Assembly: GCF_020616515.1 (NCBI RefSeq)
Contig: NZ_CP085135.1
Coordinates: 4,278,001 to 4,342,000 of the forward strand
Source: Mesorhizobium sp. PAMC28654
GTDB lineage: Bacteria > Pseudomonadota > Alphaproteobacteria > Rhizobiales > Rhizobiaceae
Direction: 5' to 3'
DNA length: 64,000 nucleotides
Part shown: one piece after another, positions 4,400-16,703 of the stretch
How positions within the stretch are numbered: the stretch's first letter is position 1
Layout: every line of letters starts with the position of its first letter
Notes under the pieces: generated by a model
What the model saw: the letters and a program-made list of their open reading frames with translations, nothing else
The model's database searches: none
What the model was told of the DNA's origin: nothing
Made by a program: the position numbers and the translations under genes

Positions 4400-6124
4400 T
4401 CAATGCGAAGGGGCAAGATGCTGCGCGTCGTGCAGGCGACGATAGATGCCGTCGGCGCGGAGCAGTTCGCTGTGCGACCCTTGCTCGACAATGCCTGAAT
4501 CCGACACCACGACGATGCGGTCGGCACCACGGATCGTCGCCAGGCGATGGGCGATGACCAGCGTGGTGCGACCTTTGGCGAGCGCTGCCAGCGCCTTCTG
4601 GATTTCCCGTTCCGTCTGGGTGTCGAGCGCCGATGTCGCTTCGTCGAGGATCAGGATCGGCGGGTTCTTCAGGAACATGCGCGCGATCGCCAGCCGCTGC
4701 TTCTGGCCGCCCGAAAGCTTGACGCCGCGTTCGCCTATGATCGTGTCGTAGCCGGCCGGCAGGCCGGCTATCGTGCCGTCGAGCTGGGCCCGCCGCGCGG
4801 CGTCGGCGATGGCCTCGTCGGATGCGCCGAGACGGCCATAGGCGATGTTTTCACGAATCGAACCGCCAAACAGGAAGACGTCCTGCTGGACGATGCCGAT
4901 CTGGCCGCGCAGCGAGGCGAGCGTCATGTCGTGAATGTCGATGCCGTCGATGGCTATCTGACCGGTGTCCACCTCATAGAAGCGCGGCAGAAGCGAGCAG
5001 ATGGTGGTCTTGCCGGCGCCGGACGGTCCGACGAAGGCGATGGTCTCGCCCGCATGGATGGTCAAGTCTATACCCTTCAGGACCGGCTTGCCGTCGCCAT
5101 AGCCGAAGCCGACATCGCGATACTTTATGGCGCCCTTCAGATTGCCGACAACCTTGGCGCCGGGACGGTCGGCAATATCGGGTTCGGTGTCCAGAAGCTC
5201 CGTATAGCGCCGGAAGCCGGCAATGCCCTTGGGATAGGTTTCGAGCACCGAATTGATCTTCTCGATCGGACGCACAAAGACGCCGACCAAAAGCAGGAAG
5301 CCGACGAAGCCGCCATTGCTGAGGTTCCCGGTGATGACGAGATAGCTGCCGACGATCATGACCACGAGCTGGATCAGCCTGATGCCCATGTAGTTCAGTG
5401 AATTGCTCGCGGCCATGATCCGGTAGGCATCGAGCTTGGTCTGGCGATAGTTCTGGTTGTCGCGTGCGAACAGCGTGCGCTCATGCTCTTCATTGGCGAA
5501 GGCCTGCACCACGCGCATGCCGCCGACATTCTCCTCGATGCGGACGTTGAAGTCGCCGACGCGGCCATAGAGCGCCTGCCAGTTGCGCTCCATGCGTTCG
5601 CCATAGCGGATCGTCACCCAGGCGATAACAGGCACGATCACCACGGTGACCAGCGCCAATGGGATGTTGACCACGAACACCAGCGCGAAAGCGCCGATGA
5701 AGGTCATGATGGCGATGAACAGGTCCTCGGGGCCGTGATGCGCGATCTCGCCGATTTCCTCGAGATCCTTGGTCACGCGGCCGACGAGATGCCCGGTCTT
5801 GTGGTTGTCGTAGAAGCGGAAGGACAGTTTCTGCAGATGGTCGAAGCTTTTTCGGCGCATCTCGGTCTCGATGTTGATGCCAAGCATATGGCCCCAATAG
5901 GTGACCACCGCCATCAGCACCGTGTTGAGCAGATAGATCGCCAGCAGGCCAACCGCCGCGGCAATGATCAGCGTCCATTCCTGCCGTGGCAGAAGCTGGT
6001 CGACGAAAGAACGCACCGCCATCGGAAAGCCAAGCTCGAGCAGGCCGGCCAGCACGGCGCAGGAGAAGTCGAGTGCGAACAGCCCCTTCCAGGGGGCGTA
6101 GTAGGAAAGGAAGCGTCTGATCAT
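4400..6124 (-). CDS. ABC exporter, fused permease and ATPase (MsbA/lipid-A or siderophore exporter type)
   Basis: A 574-residue half-transporter: six transmembrane helices over about residues 1-310, then an ATP-binding domain with Walker A GPSGAGKTT, signature LSGGQKQR, Walker B ILILDEATSALD and the H-loop IAHRLATIR. It should act as a homodimer in the inner membrane. It is divergent from the iron-uptake operon and shares a 285-bp intergenic region containing two TGA-N9-TCA boxes, so it may be iron-regulated and export a siderophore. That role is inferred from position only; lipid or drug export is equally compatible with the sequence. Confidence 0.85.
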   Translation of the reverse strand: MIRRFLSYYAPWKGLFALDFSCAVLAGLLELGFPMAVRSFVDQLLPRQEWTLIIAAAVGLLAIYLLNTVLMAVVTYWGHMLGINIETEMRRKSFDHLQKLSFRFYDNHKTGHLVGRVTKDLEEIGEIAHHGPEDLFIAIMTFIGAFALVFVVNIPLALVTVVIVPVIAWVTIRYGERMERNWQALYGRVGDFNVRIEENVGGMRVVQAFANEEHERTLFARDNQNYRQTKLDAYRIMAASNSLNYMGIRLIQLVVMIVGSYLVITGNLSNGGFVGFLLLVGVFVRPIEKINSVLETYPKGIAGFRRYTELLDTEPDIADRPGAKVVGNLKGAIKYRDVGFGYGDGKPVLKGIDLTIHAGETIAFVGPSGAGKTTICSLLPRFYEVDTGQIAIDGIDIHDMTLASLRGQIGIVQQDVFLFGGSIRENIAYGRLGASDEAIADAARRAQLDGTIAGLPAGYDTIIGERGVKLSGGQKQRLAIARMFLKNPPILILDEATSALDTQTEREIQKALAALAKGRTTLVIAHRLATIRGADRIVVVSDSGIVEQGSHSELLRADGIYRRLHDAQHLAPSH

Positions 6125-6409: not shown

Positions 6410-7201
6410 GTGGCTGGAATTCATGCCGAGACAGCCTTCCATATCGACGCGGTGCGTTTCGCCGCCGGCGAGCGAACATTGCTCGGCCCTGTCTCGCTCG
6501 AACTGGAACGCGCGCGCGTCTACGGGCTGATCGGCCACAATGGGTCGGGCAAGTCCACGCTGATCAAGCTGCTGGCGCGCCAGCAGCCGGCAAGCTCGGG
6601 CGCCATCACCTTCGCCCAGCGGCCGCTGGCGCAGTGGGGCGCCCGCGAACTCGCCCGCGCGCTTGCCTATCTGCCGCAGACGACGCCGGCTGCTACGGGC
6701 CTGACCGTGCGCGAACTGGCGACGCTCGGGCGCTACCCCTGGCATGGGGCGCTTGGCCGGTTCCGTGCCGAGGACAGGCGGCATGTCGAGGAGGCACTGA
6801 TCTTGACCGACATGGAGGGTTTTGCCGACCGGCTGGTGGACGAATTGTCAGGTGGTGAGCGCCAGCGTGCCTGGCTGGCCATGCTGGTCGCCCAGAATGC
6901 CGGTGTCATGCTGCTCGACGAACCGATTTCGGCGCTCGACATCGCCCATCAGGTCGAAGTGCTTGCCCTCGTCAAGGATCTCAGCCGCAAGCGCGACCTG
7001 TGCGTCGTCGTCGTCCTGCACGACCCCAACATGGCGGCGCGCTATTGCGACGAGCTGATCGCGCTGAAGGACGGCAAGCTGCTGACGCGGGGCACCCCGG
7101 ACGAGATCATGCAAGGCGATGTGCTCAAGGGCATTTTCGGCGTGGAGATGGGCGTGTTCGCGCACCCCGTCACCGGCCAGCCCATAGGCTATGTGCAATG
7201 A
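6410..7201 (+). CDS. Ferric-siderophore/haem-type ABC transporter ATPase (FhuC/FecE-like)
   Basis: A 263-residue cytoplasmic ATPase with Walker [10 protein letters not shown] (about residues 43-51), signature LSGGERQR, Walker [14 protein letters not shown] and H-loop VLHDPN. The spacing and the [16 protein letters not shown] tail match FhuC/FecE proteins that energise import of ferric chelates. It starts with GTG. No binding protein or permease is adjacent; exbB follows after 51 bp, so this is an ATPase co-transcribed with its energising TonB complex rather than a full ABC operon. The partner permease must be encoded elsewhere (inference). Confidence 0.85.
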
Positions 7202-12296: not shown

Positions 12297-12617
12297 CTAA
12301 CGATAGGCCTGCGACTGGCAGAGGGCTTCGACCTGTTCCAGATAGAAACGGCACTTGGTGCGAAGGCTCCGCAGCCCCGGATCGCCGGCGCCGTTGAGAT
12401 CGATTGCCTGCATCATGAAATCGAAGTGGGCGTAAAACGCATCCACCGCGCCCCAGAGGTTGTCGGCATGGCATGTATCGGCGATTGCCCGTGAAACGAG
12501 CCGGCGGGCCTCCGTGCGCGCGTCATCGGGTGAGTCCGGTCGTCTTCCGATCATGTCCCTAAGCCGGCTGAATACATCGTCTGTCTCGATGCCCGTGATG
12601 GGTGCCATCATGTTCAT
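12297..12617 (-). CDS. Hypothetical protein, 106 aa
   Basis: I do not recognise this family. The protein begins MNMMAPITGIETDDVFSRL and is a mostly helical, soluble, acidic-to-neutral sequence with two cysteines near the C-terminus (KCRFYLEQVEALCQ). AGGGGGA lies 8 bases before the ATG at 12617, which supports translation; the frame extends upstream to 12680 without a ribosome site. A second small gene on the same strand begins about 450 bp upstream. Confidence 0.5.
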   Translation of the reverse strand: MNMMAPITGIETDDVFSRLRDMIGRRPDSPDDARTEARRLVSRAIADTCHADNLWGAVDAFYAHFDFMMQAIDLNGAGDPGLRSLRTKCRFYLEQVEALCQSQAYR

Positions 12618-12818
12618 GCGTGGTATCCCCCTATGCCGTTGCAGGCCGATGTCCGCCCTCCAGGGCAGGATGCGATCCAATAGGTCATTTCGTTGCGATC
12701 AAGGCGGCCGCTGCCGTTTTCAGGGACGGCAGCAGGCTTTGCGGCGCGCAGTATCTCCCAGCGACTCATCCCAGGCACAGAGCCTGTCCCTGCATTTGAA
12801 ACCGCCATCCATATTTTG

Positions 12819-13070
12819 CTACGCTCTTCTTGGCTGAGCGTGGCTGTCCCCTGAATGCGTTCTCGGATGCAGCGCATCGCCGCCAAATTTGGCGTGCCGT
12901 GCCGGCCGCGCGCCGCGAAGAACGTCGAAGGCTTCCGCATAAGCCATGCCCAGCAGATAGGAGATCATTGGGAAGCGGCCCGCTTCCGCCATCTGGACGA
13001 GCTCATTGGACATCGTAGCAATGTATTGGAGGCTATCGATTTCCGACTGACGTAACGATTGATTTGCCAC
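12819..13070 (-). CDS. Hypothetical small protein, 83 aa
   Basis: Starts with GTG preceded by CAGGAG at 6-base spacing. The first ~50 residues (IDSLQYIATMSNELVQMAEAG, then FPMISYLLGMAYAEAFDVLR) form amphipathic helices typical of short conserved rhizobial proteins, while the last ~30 residues are low in structure and rich in His and Arg. It has no recognisable catalytic motif. Its downstream neighbour on the same strand is the 106-residue hypothetical protein. Confidence 0.5.
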   Translation of the reverse strand: MANQSLRQSEIDSLQYIATMSNELVQMAEAGRFPMISYLLGMAYAEAFDVLRGARPARHAKFGGDALHPRTHSGDSHAQPRRA

Positions 13071-13221
13071 GTGTGGCTCCTGTCAATTAGGGGAAACTCT
13101 AGGAACGCTTACTGGCAATTAAGTGTACTGATGCATAAAGGTCGCGGATTGCCCGCTTGGACTGCGTCTTTGGTTCACCTCTTCGTTTTACTGCCAGGTC
13201 TAAAGTCTTTGATCCGATATT

Positions 13222-14286
13222 CTAGTTGATCGCGCCGCCCACGGCGTGCGTAGCTTTTTCCGGGACAGCGATGGTCAAAGCGTAGATCGGCGCGTCGGTG
13301 AGGCGATCGAGGCCCAGCAGCCGCTTGATTGACGAATGGCACAGCGCCGCCGTAGGACACGCCGACAGGCCATGGCTCGTGGCTGCCAGCATGATGTTCT
13401 GGCCGATATGGCCGGCTTCGATCAGCACGACACGGTAGGCATTGGCGTCCTCGTATTTCCACATCGTGCGATCAAGTTTCGCGCAGAGCAGGATCAGGCA
13501 GGGCATTGCGTCTCCCCATTCCTGCCCGCCGATCAATTCGGAGATTTTCGGCAGATGGTTTGCCGAGATCCGGCCAAGATCGTGGTCGGCGGCGGAGTAG
13601 TGGTAGACGCCAGGGTCCAGGCCCTCCACCGCCAGCGCAACGACATAGGCTTCGTATGGATTCCTGGCGCCGCCGGAAGGGGTCATGCCGAGCGGCAGGG
13701 ACCCTACGCAGTTGGTCGTTTCCCCGGTGATGCCCATGCCGGCGAACAGGCAATCCGAGAGCTGCTTCGCCGTGATAGTGGGCGCTCCCGCGGTCCGGTT
13801 GGTGCGGCGCTGGGCCATCAGCCCGAGAAGATCATTGTCGTCCAGCGCGTTCGGCAGCCGAATGGCGCCGGGCGAATTCTTGAGCATGAGCTCGGGCTGC
13901 GGAATATGACCGGCGCGTTTGACCTGCCGCTCTTCCGATTGCTCGATGGTAATGAATTCACTGTCCTGGACGCAGAAGTGCATCAATGCGGTCGGGATGC
14001 CCCAGCCCCATTGCCCCGAAAACCGGGCCTCCTGCTCGGCGAGTTCCGAGCCGGCCGTGACCAGGGCTGAAAAGTCGACCAATTGGGGAACGACGGCTTT
14101 CAACTCGGAGCGTGACCAGCCCTTGGCGCGGGCGATATCAGCCGGAGATGCCCATTCGTCCCATGAGGCGAGAAGGCCGATGACCTCGGAACTGCATTCA
14201 AACACGCTCTTGGTGAGAAAGTTGCAAGCAGTGACCTTGTCTTGCCCGGGGTAGAAAACCAGCGTTTTTGAGGAGCGCATTTTCAT
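13222..14286 (-). CDS. SagB-type flavin-dependent peptide dehydrogenase (nitroreductase fold)
   Basis: A 354-residue protein. Residues ~1-90 resemble the N-terminal winged-helix-like part of SagB proteins (ECSSEVIGLLASWDEWAS, GWSRSELKAVVPQLVDFSALV). The remainder is the FMN-binding nitroreductase fold: RRTNR near residue 160, TPSGGARNPYEAYVVAL near 205, and EAGHIGQNIMLAATSHGL near 300. In azole-forming RiPP pathways SagB/McbC oxidises azolines to azoles (established). No YcaO cyclodehydratase or E1-like partner is present in the window. A 31-codon ORF ends 62 bp upstream. The open frame extends to 14451 but then overlaps that small ORF in another frame; the start at 14286 is chosen for this reason and has only a weak ribosome site. 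Confidence 0.75.
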   Translation of the reverse strand: MKMRSSKTLVFYPGQDKVTACNFLTKSVFECSSEVIGLLASWDEWASPADIARAKGWSRSELKAVVPQLVDFSALVTAGSELAEQEARFSGQWGWGIPTALMHFCVQDSEFITIEQSEERQVKRAGHIPQPELMLKNSPGAIRLPNALDDNDLLGLMAQRRTNRTAGAPTITAKQLSDCLFAGMGITGETTNCVGSLPLGMTPSGGARNPYEAYVVALAVEGLDPGVYHYSAADHDLGRISANHLPKISELIGGQEWGDAMPCLILLCAKLDRTMWKYEDANAYRVVLIEAGHIGQNIMLAATSHGLSACPTAALCHSSIKRLLGLDRLTDAPIYALTIAVPEKATHAVGGAIN

Positions 14287-14348
14287 TGTTCGACGCCATT
14301 GCCAGGGCGGGACGCCGACGAACGATAGCCCGTCGACGCCCCATGATT

Positions 14349-14444
14349 TCAGCGCTTGTTGTAGTGCATGCCCTGCGAGAAGAAGACGGTCTGAGTGCCA
14401 GCGGCAACAGTCAACTTCGGAGCGGTGTTCACTTTCTTCGCCAT
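14349..14444 (-). CDS. 31-aa ORF, candidate substrate peptide of the SagB-type enzyme
   Basis: A small ORF on the same strand as, and just upstream of, the SagB-like gene. It opens MAKKVNTAPKLTV, has a central AAGTQ turn and ends TVFFSQGMHYNKR. A strong purine-rich ribosome site (GGAAAGGG) lies seven bases before its ATG, much better than that of the enzyme. It is basic at both ends with a Thr/Ser/Gly/Phe-containing middle and has no cysteine. It is too short for domain searches; its reality rests on the ribosome site, its position and the nature of the neighbour. If it is a precursor, modification of Thr, Ser or the C-terminal Met-His-Tyr segment is possible, but this is inference. Confidence 0.5.
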   Translation of the reverse strand: MAKKVNTAPKLTVAAGTQTVFFSQGMHYNKR

Positions 14445-14686
14445 TTTTCATCCCTTTCCTTGACCCCCCAAGTGGGATCTACGAAAGGAAACGTAGTGTT
14501 GAAGAAGTTAATGATTTATTAAAATTACAGTAGAGTTGCAGACGAAGGCAGGGATCGTGCCTTTTGTTGCTTTTGTACAAACTTCATAAACTTATTTTAC
14601 TCGCACCTGGAGTAGAATATCAGAAGTATATGCTCTTTTCGAATATCTTATCCTGATTTAGCATAACAAGCTGTGGTTGAAGCCAA

Positions 14687-15480
14687 CTATTTGGCGCTAT
14701 CCCTGGTAAGGCTGACCACGAGTTGATCGATATCCGGGTCATCGAGCCTGACGACGTGAGCCATCCGGATCGCATCCCTCGGACGAATGTTGGAAACTTC
14801 TTGGCGCATGACAACAGAGACAAATGCCGGCCCGGACTCGGTCAACAGCATAGCCTTTCCCGTCAGGACCGGTTCCGAGATGGGTGCCACTGGACCGAGA
14901 TGAGCGACGGCTCCCCGGTCTGCCGGCGATTGACCCCGCTGAAATAGATCCAGTTCAGACGTGCGATCGCCACCCCGTAGTGATTGCCGCGTGCACGGGC
15001 CCATGTCGATCCGCGGCGCTCGGACCAGCCGGTCACTCTTCTGAATGTGACCAGTTCCGCGTCGCGCCGGACAAAGGTCACCGACCGCACCAAGAGGTCG
15101 TCGCGACCCGGGATCGAGAAGTAGGTGAAATACGTTCCCCCCGCGATGGATGGGCTGGGCGGGCGTATCAACTGTTTGAACAGGCTTTCGGAAACGGCAG
15201 GCAAGCCCGGAACTCCCGCTTCCGAACTACCGTGGTCCTGGTACAGTTCGGCCTCGTCGATATGGAAATAATCACATATGAGCTTGGCCGTGGCCTTGTT
15301 GGGAACAGTCTGGCCTTGCAGGTAGCGCTCGAACTGCGTGCGGTTGATGCGCAGTTCCCGGCATACCGCGCTTACCGAGGCATGGTCTTTGCAGAGCCGT
15401 CTAAGGTTTGCAGCGATATTCTCGCGAATGGGCACTTCATTGCTTCCGCAGGCGGATTCATAATTCTGCTGGAAACCCAT
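14687..15480 (-). pseudogene. XRE-family regulator interrupted by one frameshift
   Basis: Reading from 15480, an XRE helix-turn-helix lies at about residues 17-80 (IRENIAANLRRLCKDHASVSAVCRELRINRTQFERYLQG). A ~120-residue effector-like domain follows (FKQLIRPPSPSIAGGTYFTYFSIPG). The frame closes at 14863 after SLISVQW, but another frame continues with APISEPVLTGKAM through VSVVMRQEVSNIRP to a stop at 14687. Restoring one base near 14887 (TGGCACCC to TGGGCACCC) joins both parts into one ~264-residue protein. Either the gene has lost one base of a short run or the sequence has an error. It lies about 240 bp upstream of the 31-codon ORF on the same strand, but no regulatory link is shown. Confidence 0.6.
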
Positions 15481-15750
15481 ATAGCGTTTTCGGCCGCCCC
15501 ACCGAACGCCGTGACGCAACGCACAGAAAAAACTGATACAATCCGCCGACAATAACCGGCTGGCCGTCAAAACAAATAGCAGGAGCCCGATCGCGACCAC
15601 CGCCATAAGTCCAATTGACAACCGGCTGGCCAAGTGTTGGACGCGATGATCAGGGATGGAAGCGAAGGCGCCGGATCCGGCTGGCGCGTTGCGTCGTCAT
15701 CAGCGGGCCGTGCCCGCAACGGCGCACCGCCGTTCTTTCGATAGGGCAGG

Positions 15751-15987
15751 CTACGGTGTCAGTAGGATTTCAGCGCCCGCCTGTTCGTCGAACAAAACTG
15801 AATAGCCGCACTGAAGCGCTACCATCGAGAGAGCGTTCGCCGCCACCTCGTCCGAGGACTCGAAATCGCCAGTCAGGATCCGCAACTCTTCCACGGCTTT
15901 GGCCGTCGACATGAAATGTCCAACCGCCAGATCGTGCTTGCAGGCGTCAACCACACAAAGCAAGTCAATCATTTCGAAGCCGCGCAT
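15751..15987 (-). CDS. Hypothetical small protein, 78 aa
   Basis: Starts at an ATG preceded by TTGGAGG at 6-base spacing, a strong ribosome site. The sequence (MRGFEMIDLLCVVDACKHDL, later LSMVALQCGYSVLFDEQ) is acidic and soluble with three cysteines. I do not recognise a family. It stands alone between the XRE regulator and a lipoprotein gene, all on the minus strand but with gaps over 250 bp on either side. Confidence 0.5.
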   Translation of the reverse strand: MRGFEMIDLLCVVDACKHDLAVGHFMSTAKAVEELRILTGDFESSDEVAANALSMVALQCGYSVLFDEQAGAEILLTP

Positions 15988-16194
15988 GTCCAGCCTCCAA
16001 GGTTTGTTCCTCTAAGGAACGTAGCCGCGGGCGATAATGTTCCCGCGGGTCAGTCTCAGCTTCCGCGATCGCGCCATGTCCGCACCCTGGCGACTCGGCC
16101 ATATCTGCCTTGCGGCGGACCTGTCGATCCGCCCGGCTGGCGTCCCTTCAGTTACTCCGATCTGGTGGGGACGTCAGCCACCCAAACAGCCAAA

Positions 16195-16232
16195 GCAATT
16201 CCGGGAAAGTGTGAAACGGTTTTCCGTTTCAC
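16195..16232. repeat. Dispersed rhizobial intergenic palindromic repeat, copy 2
   Basis: The segment GCAATTCCGGGAAAGTGTG is followed by a perfect 9-bp hairpin, GTGAAACGG (16211-16219) with CCGTTTCAC (16224-16232) and a T4 loop. It matches the repeat at 11744-11811 and lies immediately downstream of the lipoprotein gene, where it could also act as a transcript end. Confidence 0.6.
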
Positions 16233-16244
16233 CTCCTCGCCATT

Positions 16245-16703
16245 TCAGCCCACGGGCTGGCCAGTTTTTGGGGGTGCCTTGGGCGGCATAGGCTTGTTGA
16301 CGCTGGTGCTCTGATCAGCGGCGTCGACGGGCACGAGTGTTATCAATGCCGGGTTCGGATAGTGGTCCAGCGTCGCTCCGGACATGGCATCAACGCCGAT
16401 GCCAATAACACCGCCAAGCAAGATGTTGCCGGCAAGGCCGGCAGCGCCGTTGCCGCCCATCTTCGTGCCGATGAACAGTTGACCCGCCTTGTAACCGGGT
16501 TTCTCGGCGAAGGCCGTCAGTTCCGTCTTGCGGCTGACTTCGATCGTGCATGGCGATTGTGGGCAAGAATGCCCGAGACTCGTTCTGATCGTCGCATCGG
16601 GCGGATTCGAACTTATTACTACTTTTTCCGTGGTGCCACGAACCACGGACGCGCAGCCGCACAGGGCAGCCATGCAGGCCGCCGCAACTATTGCAGATTT
16701 CAT
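16245..16703 (-). CDS. Lipoprotein with PEGA-like domain
   Basis: A 152-residue exported lipoprotein. A signal peptide with lipobox ALCGC-A (cysteine at about residue 17) starts MKSAIVAAACMA. A short beta-rich PEGA-like domain follows (VVISSNPPDATIRTSLGHSC, CTIEVSRKTEL), then a glycine-rich hydrophobic stretch (AAGLAGNILLGGVIGIGVD) and a proline-rich tail. Homologues are commonly mislabelled as translation initiation factor 2. GGGGGAA precedes the ATG at 16703. It probably sits in the outer membrane or periplasm; its function is unknown. Confidence 0.75.
   Translation of the reverse strand: MKSAIVAAACMAALCGCASVVRGTTEKVVISSNPPDATIRTSLGHSCPQSPCTIEVSRKTELTAFAEKPGYKAGQLFIGTKMGGNGAAGLAGNILLGGVIGIGVDAMSGATLDHYPNPALITLVPVDAADQSTSVNKPMPPKAPPKTGQPVG

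Follow-up and report, generated by a model that had tools for sequence, protein, structure and literature searches.

A SagB-like dehydrogenase and a conserved 31-codon open reading frame form a candidate minimal RiPP-type cassette in Mesorhizobium and related bacteria

The window that we analyzed, a stretch of 64,000 nucleotides from the genome of Mesorhizobium sp. PAMC28654, contains on its minus strand a unit transcribed in the order regulator, 31-codon ORF, enzyme (Table 1). A first-pass annotation had claimed a 31-codon ORF beside a stand-alone SagB-type dehydrogenase, and we located this ORF at 14349-14444 of the minus strand, with an AAGGGA ribosome site. The same annotation considered the peptide ORF to be the only other frame in the transcript, which is incomplete, since a gene for an HTH regulator lies just upstream on the same strand. 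A conserved block upstream of the peptide may serve as a promoter or operator.

Table 1. Features of the peptide-enzyme unit in the window, and tandem cores of related loci
Feature	Position	Strand	Basis or remark
SagB/ThcOx-family FMN dehydrogenase, 354 residues	13222..14286	minus	likely start MKMRSS; K277-Y278 motif
RNA hairpin in the peptide-enzyme intergenic region	14309..14342	minus	fold z -3.1
31-residue precursor-like peptide MAKKVNTAPKLTVAAGTQTVFFSQGMHYNKR	14349..14444	minus	dN/dS 0.165; C-terminal motif GMHYNK conserved
Ribosome-binding site AGGAAAGGGA of peptide	14451..14460	minus	sequence
Promoter- or operator-like block upstream of peptide	14507..14534	minus	strong conservation, 32 aligned Mesorhizobium sequences
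XRE-type HTH regulator, C-terminal domain of unknown type	14696..15432	minus	split between two frames
Tandem core RIVFSTGSA x 5	L102
Tandem core RIVFATGSA x 4	L107
Tandem core RMLWATGSA x 3	L106
Tandem core RMPYAA x 3	L112
Tandem core RMPYC x 2	L115

The open frame of the enzyme (13222-14451, minus strand) holds RRTNR, TPSGGARNPYEAYV and EAGHIGQN, and thus all three of the SagB/nitroreductase motifs initially assigned to it are present. The protein scores 98.3 bits against the SagB model TIGR03605 (curated cut-off 78.4) and 65.1 against Pfam Nitroreductase (cut-off 23.5), and its sequence matches in the PDB include CyaGox and McbC. The best-scoring NCBIfam model is TIGR04511, against which the enzyme reaches 139.6 bits, less than the curated cut-off of 240; five relatives score 137-197 bits against this model. 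The K277-Y278 pair is invariant in 46 of 46 aligned enzymes, comprising the window enzyme and 45 from the best 80 of 108 loci; this alignment omits most close Mesorhizobium copies, near-copies such as L077, L085, L113 and L122, and L123, which has a stop codon in its stated frame. A Lys-Tyr motif serves the TOMM (azoline) dehydrogenases, according to PMC11055893.

The enzyme most likely starts at the MKMRSS methionine (14286). The open frame of L005 and L013 starts with this methionine, in other relatives the upstream part is out of frame or interrupted by a stop, and the enzymes of distant relatives align from the same methionine. The N-terminus is plausibly a PqqD-like recognition domain: comparison of the first 100 residues with the PqqD family by hhalign gave a probability of 79.5% (pairwise E 1.5e-5, 50 columns), while the controls gave 0.1% for the enzyme N-terminus against XRE regulators and 9.8% for PqqD against regulators. 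A Pfam scan of the N-terminus returned no PqqD match, nor any Pfam match for this part of the window protein, and its best match in the PDB, the N-terminus of the radical SAM protein 8vpo, was not significant (E 0.085).

The 31-codon ORF is a real gene. Pooled over 35 distinct Mesorhizobium nucleotide sequences, dN/dS is 0.165 for the peptide frame, whereas the frame in which the enzyme's 55-residue extension would be read gives 3.0. The annotation had staked its idea on this comparison, and the idea survived: purifying selection acts on the peptide frame and is not seen in the extension frame. Likewise, its suggestion that the extension is probably not translated agrees both with the dN/dS of 3.0 and with the frame changes or stops seen in relatives. 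Variable columns number 11, 6 and 18 at codon positions 1, 2 and 3 of the peptide frame, and among the same 35 sequences stops occur in the extension frame of one and in the third frame of all 35. These sequences were drawn from 51 loci and are a fair number, because some genomes are present twice among the loci; the strict pattern used to define the set excluded 7 of 58 sequences, namely the distant L021-L023, the remnants L024-L026, and L048, in which the peptide is present with a Q to K change. Outside Mesorhizobium, changes in the peptide at codon positions 1, 2 and 3 number 14, 8 and 35 in six pairs, two of which have a common member (a seventh pair, of unequal length, was not counted). 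The window peptide contains no Cys. No Pfam or NCBIfam model matches any of nine peptides scanned (the window peptide and eight short relatives), which suggests that annotation may miss short peptides; of five longer precursor-like relatives scanned, two gave no match and three gave sub-threshold matches only.

The signals around the peptide bear on how much of it is made. The peptide had been credited with a better ribosome site than the enzyme, which agrees with the non-Mesorhizobium loci of the same type, where the ribosome-site 4-mer precedes the peptide in 26/26 cases and the first aligned codon of the enzyme in 7/26. Of 37 intergenic regions homologous to that between peptide and enzyme, 35 fold with z < -1.5 (mean -3.3; the exceptions are L092 and L100), and within Mesorhizobium both sides have changed in 3 of 12 consensus pairs of the hairpin. 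A U-run follows some of the hairpins and is absent from others. The strong ribosome site and the hairpin favor production of precursor in excess of enzyme; an attenuator would look similar. Positions 12500-16500 gave no Rfam match to known RNA elements.

We find that the peptide and the enzyme occur together. When the small ORF was looked for beside the enzyme across Mesorhizobium, it was found in all 31 of the 99 genomes with a full-length enzyme (one of which, G893, is counted as full-length but has an internal TAG) and in 4 of the 68 others (Fisher P = 1.1e-21 over the 99 genomes, not corrected for kinship). Of the four, G868 has the peptide with an enzyme in two pieces, G045 and G871 have deletions that fuse the peptide to the final portion of the enzyme gene, and G886 has the peptide, which reads MARKVNRPPKLTIAAGTQTVFFSQAMHDNKR, without any enzyme match. 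This enzyme-less peptide (L170, 1161-1253) has QAMHDNKR in place of QGMHYNKR, and thus the motif has lost its Gly as well as its Tyr, as might be expected of a substrate released from selection, in what is a single case. In L025, L026 and L171 most of the enzyme gene is deleted and the peptide ORF is joined to the enzyme's last part; the junctions in L025 and L026 differ and the joined frame is open in both. These may be products of decay or small new proteins.

The peptide-enzyme unit is not limited to Mesorhizobium. We scanned the enzyme alignment against one genome per species and took the best 80 of 108 loci, 32 of which are close Mesorhizobium-type loci, all with the peptide (32/32). Of the other 48, we examined 47, leaving out L104, in which the enzyme start is off the contig, and 26 of these 47 have an ORF of 25-37 residues with a ribosome site, ending 50-151 bases before the enzyme. 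In control windows of 280 bases elsewhere in the same loci, such an ORF is found in 114 of 1960, and an ORF that also has the C-terminal pattern in 3 of 1960, compared to 26/26 upstream of the enzyme; the pattern was drawn from the same loci as those counted, and the 26 loci were picked after seeing their ORFs. Three new peptides from held-out loci (L128, L141 and L142) all come from ORFs with the aromatic residue in place, and the strict pattern fits one of the three, with L128 (by eye) and L141 missing it. The peptides of L133, L139, L140, L143 and L144 are identical to ones already found, and the more distant enzymes of L145-L147 have no such ORF upstream.

In a tree of 51 enzymes, all 31 short-ORF enzymes form one clade (support 100/100), which the 26 loci and the three held-out ones share without exception. 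Every one of its 31 rows has an ORF of 25-41 residues, mostly ending in G-M-x-[Y/F]-[N/D]-K-x. The clade is mainly from Hyphomicrobiales; L128 is filed under Roseateles, with the organism unverified. Five enzymes from multi-core loci fall in a separate clade (100/99), and the tree does not resolve L099, L108 and L131, whose longer ORFs are of the YNK or LNK type, into a single group.

Conservation within the peptides is concentrated at the tail. Among 27 distinct tails from 31 loci, position -4 is Y in 12, F in 11, L in 3 and H in 1, the single H belonging to a tail that is one residue shorter and has F adjoining, while Gly is found at -7 in 19, Asn at -3 in 16 and Lys at -2 in 22. The N-terminal half varies widely in length and sequence. 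Nevertheless, [LV]x[VIL] is present in 21 of 31 leaders, compared to a mean of 14.6 after shuffling (as high in 6 of 2000 shuffles). The five Caulobacteraceae-type loci have longer ORFs, in which a leader with LDL or LEL is followed by 2-5 tandem cores. Longer ORFs in Mucilaginibacter (L099) and Polaribacter (L108) contain GAAGYNKA and GALRYNKA, with 11 and 21 residues, respectively, after the YNK. The short, multi-core and YNK-type ORFs share the element [G/R]-[mostly hydrophobic]-x-[aromatic]. RiPP precursors are often marked by tandem cores, and those seen here point to the aromatic residue as the putative site of modification. Three of the five multi-core loci (L102, L107 and L115) have a cytochrome P450 gene whose end lies 0.5-1.0 kb upstream of the enzyme; this gene may encode a second tailoring enzyme.

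The 21 of 47 loci of other types, again among the best 80 of 108, include eight with longer precursor-like ORFs recognized by eye (L099, L102, L106, L107, L108, L112, L115 and L117), and in six (L110, L111, L113, L116, L121 and L122) we saw no precursor-like ORF. In the Massilia loci L110, L111 and L113, an upstream protein (about -80 from the enzyme) ends in FSTFxGNGLYPDxRR, a sequence that resembles the core motif but here closes a larger protein. L118-L120 and L123-L125 have a different small, helical-looking ORF directly upstream of the enzyme, possibly another peptide-enzyme pair, and their surroundings have in common a gene that we take from its sequence to be kinase-like. In L114 (1-113), from a Gemmatimonadota bin, an ORF at the contig edge has the repeat SPFVAAPA before the enzyme and is perhaps another multi-core precursor. 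Inspection by eye of the plasmid relatives L129 and L130 revealed no peptide of the short type. On plasmid pTi6.2 of Rhizobium rhododendri (L131), a 113-residue ORF (5540-5881) with ALSLNKS precedes the SagB-like gene, and its neighbors are an adenylate-kinase gene and an MFS transporter. In Sinorhizobium medicae (L129) the relative lies among AMP-binding, cobalamin-dependent and hydroxylase genes, and because this cluster is of another kind, not all relatives of the enzyme need have ribosomal-peptide substrates. By contrast, a role of the wider family in peptide maturation is supported by the more distant Filimonas locus (L117), where an ORF with a GG leader, a flavoprotein, a radical SAM enzyme and a C39-peptidase ABC transporter lie beside the enzyme.

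A homolog of the regulator is present in 58 of 81 loci (the window and the best 80 of 108), all of the short-peptide type. The 23 loci without it are the 21 of other types, L073, which holds 302 bases before the enzyme, and L104, in which the contig starts inside the enzyme. In L095 and L103 the regulator is downstream of the enzyme. Within a flank of 1.5 kb, it is also found in L021-L023, L133, L139, L140, L142 and L144, but not in L141 or L143, and it is still present at L170, the locus of the orphan peptide gene. Its N-terminus is an XRE-type HTH, and its C-terminal domain gave no informative match. In the window the regulator frame is split near 14878-14890 while the peptide and enzyme frames are open; a paralog elsewhere in the genome (L172) has a single open frame and is 74% identical to a relative's copy.

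The surroundings of the unit were also described beforehand as free of YcaO, protease and transporter genes. The first two absences stand, as a Pfam scan of 13 flanking ORFs found no YcaO and no peptidase, while the third needs amendment, since at a distance of 6-7 kb there are two transporter genes of the ABC type (4403-6124 and 6410-7198), and nothing indicates that they are linked to the unit. A genome-wide search for YcaO gave no match, compared to matches in 5 of 14 control genomes. Clustering of neighbors within plus or minus 6 kb revealed no protease or exporter at a fixed place, and relatives of the L117 ABC gene are found in five short-type loci, at scattered places. A phage origin was considered and rejected, with one distant match among 50,697 phage records and one weak locus in viral contigs. 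The 64-kb window has no tRNA genes; a nearby island is possible, because genes for an integrase and for IS-type integrases are located at 17-26 kb of the window.

Taken as a whole, the unit is probably a minimal RiPP-type cassette, found mainly in Hyphomicrobiales, in which the leader of a small precursor would be bound and its core oxidized by a single enzyme. The peptide of about 30 residues would be made in excess over the enzyme, owing to the strength of its ribosome site and to a downstream hairpin that would limit read-through. That this peptide is the substrate of the enzyme is the part of the proposal that we hold with most assurance, and we consider it very probable. The first half of the peptide, which often contains an L-x-[V/I/L] strand, would serve as the leader, and recognition by the PqqD-like N-terminal domain of the enzyme is reasonably likely. 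The FMN dehydrogenase with its Lys-Tyr pair would then act on the core G-M-x-[Y/F]-[N/D]-K and oxidize its near-invariant aromatic residue, which the sequences favor slightly as the site of modification. Azole oxidation is unlikely, because the genome lacks YcaO and the window peptide lacks Cys. We favor dehydrogenation between C-alpha and C-beta, with modest confidence, because a site that is Y, F or less often L fits the preference of AlbAB, and because cyclodipeptide oxidases would offer a precedent on Phe and Leu; by this analogy the assignment is a tentative one. The linked regulator would probably control the unit or sense its product, and a signaling role for that product is speculative.

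The main rival of the RiPP reading is that the 31-codon ORF encodes a regulatory leader or arrest peptide, in which stalling at the C-terminus together with the hairpin attenuates an enzyme whose substrate is another molecule. A conserved C-terminus and a hairpin are both typical of arrest-peptide attenuators. Indeed, in this family strong conservation adjoins the stop codon, 35 of 37 loci have a terminator- or attenuator-like hairpin, and the first aligned codon of the enzyme is without the ribosome-site 4-mer in 19 of 26. However, an arrest peptide does not explain 2-5 repeats of the core, or a YNK that lies 11 or 21 residues before the end, and the U-run that accompanies the hairpin in only some loci is unlike one fixed attenuator. 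We judge this explanation improbable.

Less probable still is that the small protein stays unmodified and acts as a partner or chaperone of the oxidase, as an AlbB-type protein does for AlbA, with a free small molecule as the enzyme's substrate. The near-perfect co-occurrence of peptide and enzyme would be expected of such a pair, and the cyclodipeptide oxidase filament needs a second subunit, according to PMC11055893. The tandem cores in related loci argue against a partner, as does the retention of a short tail motif next to a first half that varies widely in length and sequence.

There is very little chance that the enzyme serves an ordinary azoline-forming TOMM pathway with its cyclodehydratase elsewhere in the genome. 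Its score above the cut-off of the SagB model agrees with such a role, but a genome-wide search that detects YcaO in 5 of 14 control genomes finds none here, the window peptide is without Cys, and the conserved residue of the core is aromatic; on the lack of any YcaO match in the whole genome we rejected an azole pathway. The least credible explanation is that translation of the enzyme includes the 55-residue extension and that the small ORF is spurious. It can draw on an ATG at 14451 beside the same ribosome site and on a frame that stays open over the overlap, both in the window and in 34 of the 35 distinct sequences, but was rejected on the dN/dS of 3.0 versus 0.165 in the small frame, and is further opposed by the stops or frame changes between both parts in several relatives and by the alignment of distant relatives from the MKMRSS methionine.

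Returning to the RiPP reading, the unit may represent a new class, in which a single PqqD-like/SagB-like fusion enzyme, working without a cyclodehydratase, would introduce a double bond at an aromatic residue of a linear peptide of about 30 residues, and the linked XRE-type regulator would respond to the product as a signal; as a whole this combination of features is somewhat doubtful. If true, the class would extend to the multi-core precursors of Caulobacteraceae and the YNK-type precursors of Bacteroidota. An oxidase that stands alone with a tiny precursor of its own would rank among the smallest RiPP pathways, and might open a way to linear peptides with unsaturated aromatic residues.

The SagB-type oxidases known in RiPPs are helpers that finish the azoles that a YcaO enzyme began, and we found no exception to this in the literature covered. 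The SagB/McbC/ThcOx azoline dehydrogenases of TOMM and cyanobactin pathways have in common with the window enzyme the FMN nitroreductase family and the Lys-Tyr motif, but the window genome is without YcaO, the core residue is aromatic rather than Cys, Ser or Thr, and the precursor is only about 30 residues long. The enzyme superfamily was known already, and the NCBIfam model TIGR04511 has a name, 'putative peptide maturation dehydrogenase' (SagB_rel_DH_2), that anticipates a role for a SagB relative in maturing peptides; the window enzyme lies below the curated cut-off of this model (139.6 vs 240 bits). We did not find a description of the precursor family, its motif, the multi-core relatives or the link to the regulator, and the peptide-enzyme system is undescribed in the literature covered, which was mainly open-access, bioRxiv apart, and included PMC12452194, PMC10036551 and PMC10880069.

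The unit has one feature of RiPP pathways, a short conserved precursor gene adjoining a putative modifying enzyme. PQQ- and mycofactocin-type RiPPs are made from short precursors in which an aromatic residue lies close to the C-terminus, and they use a PqqD-type domain for recognition. AlbAB, which makes albonoursin, is a nitroreductase-family flavin oxidase that alpha,beta-dehydrogenates the Phe and Leu of a cyclic dipeptide (PMC11055893), residues that compare with the Y, F or L at the putative site of the window family. In contrast to the AlbAB system, the substrate here would be a linear ribosomal peptide, and we noticed no second, AlbB-like subunit. The likeness to PQQ and mycofactocin lies in the short precursor, the aromatic residue near its C-terminus and the putative PqqD-like domain; unlike those systems, the neighbor clustering of the clade shows no radical SAM gene, and the recognition-like domain is fused to the oxidase itself.
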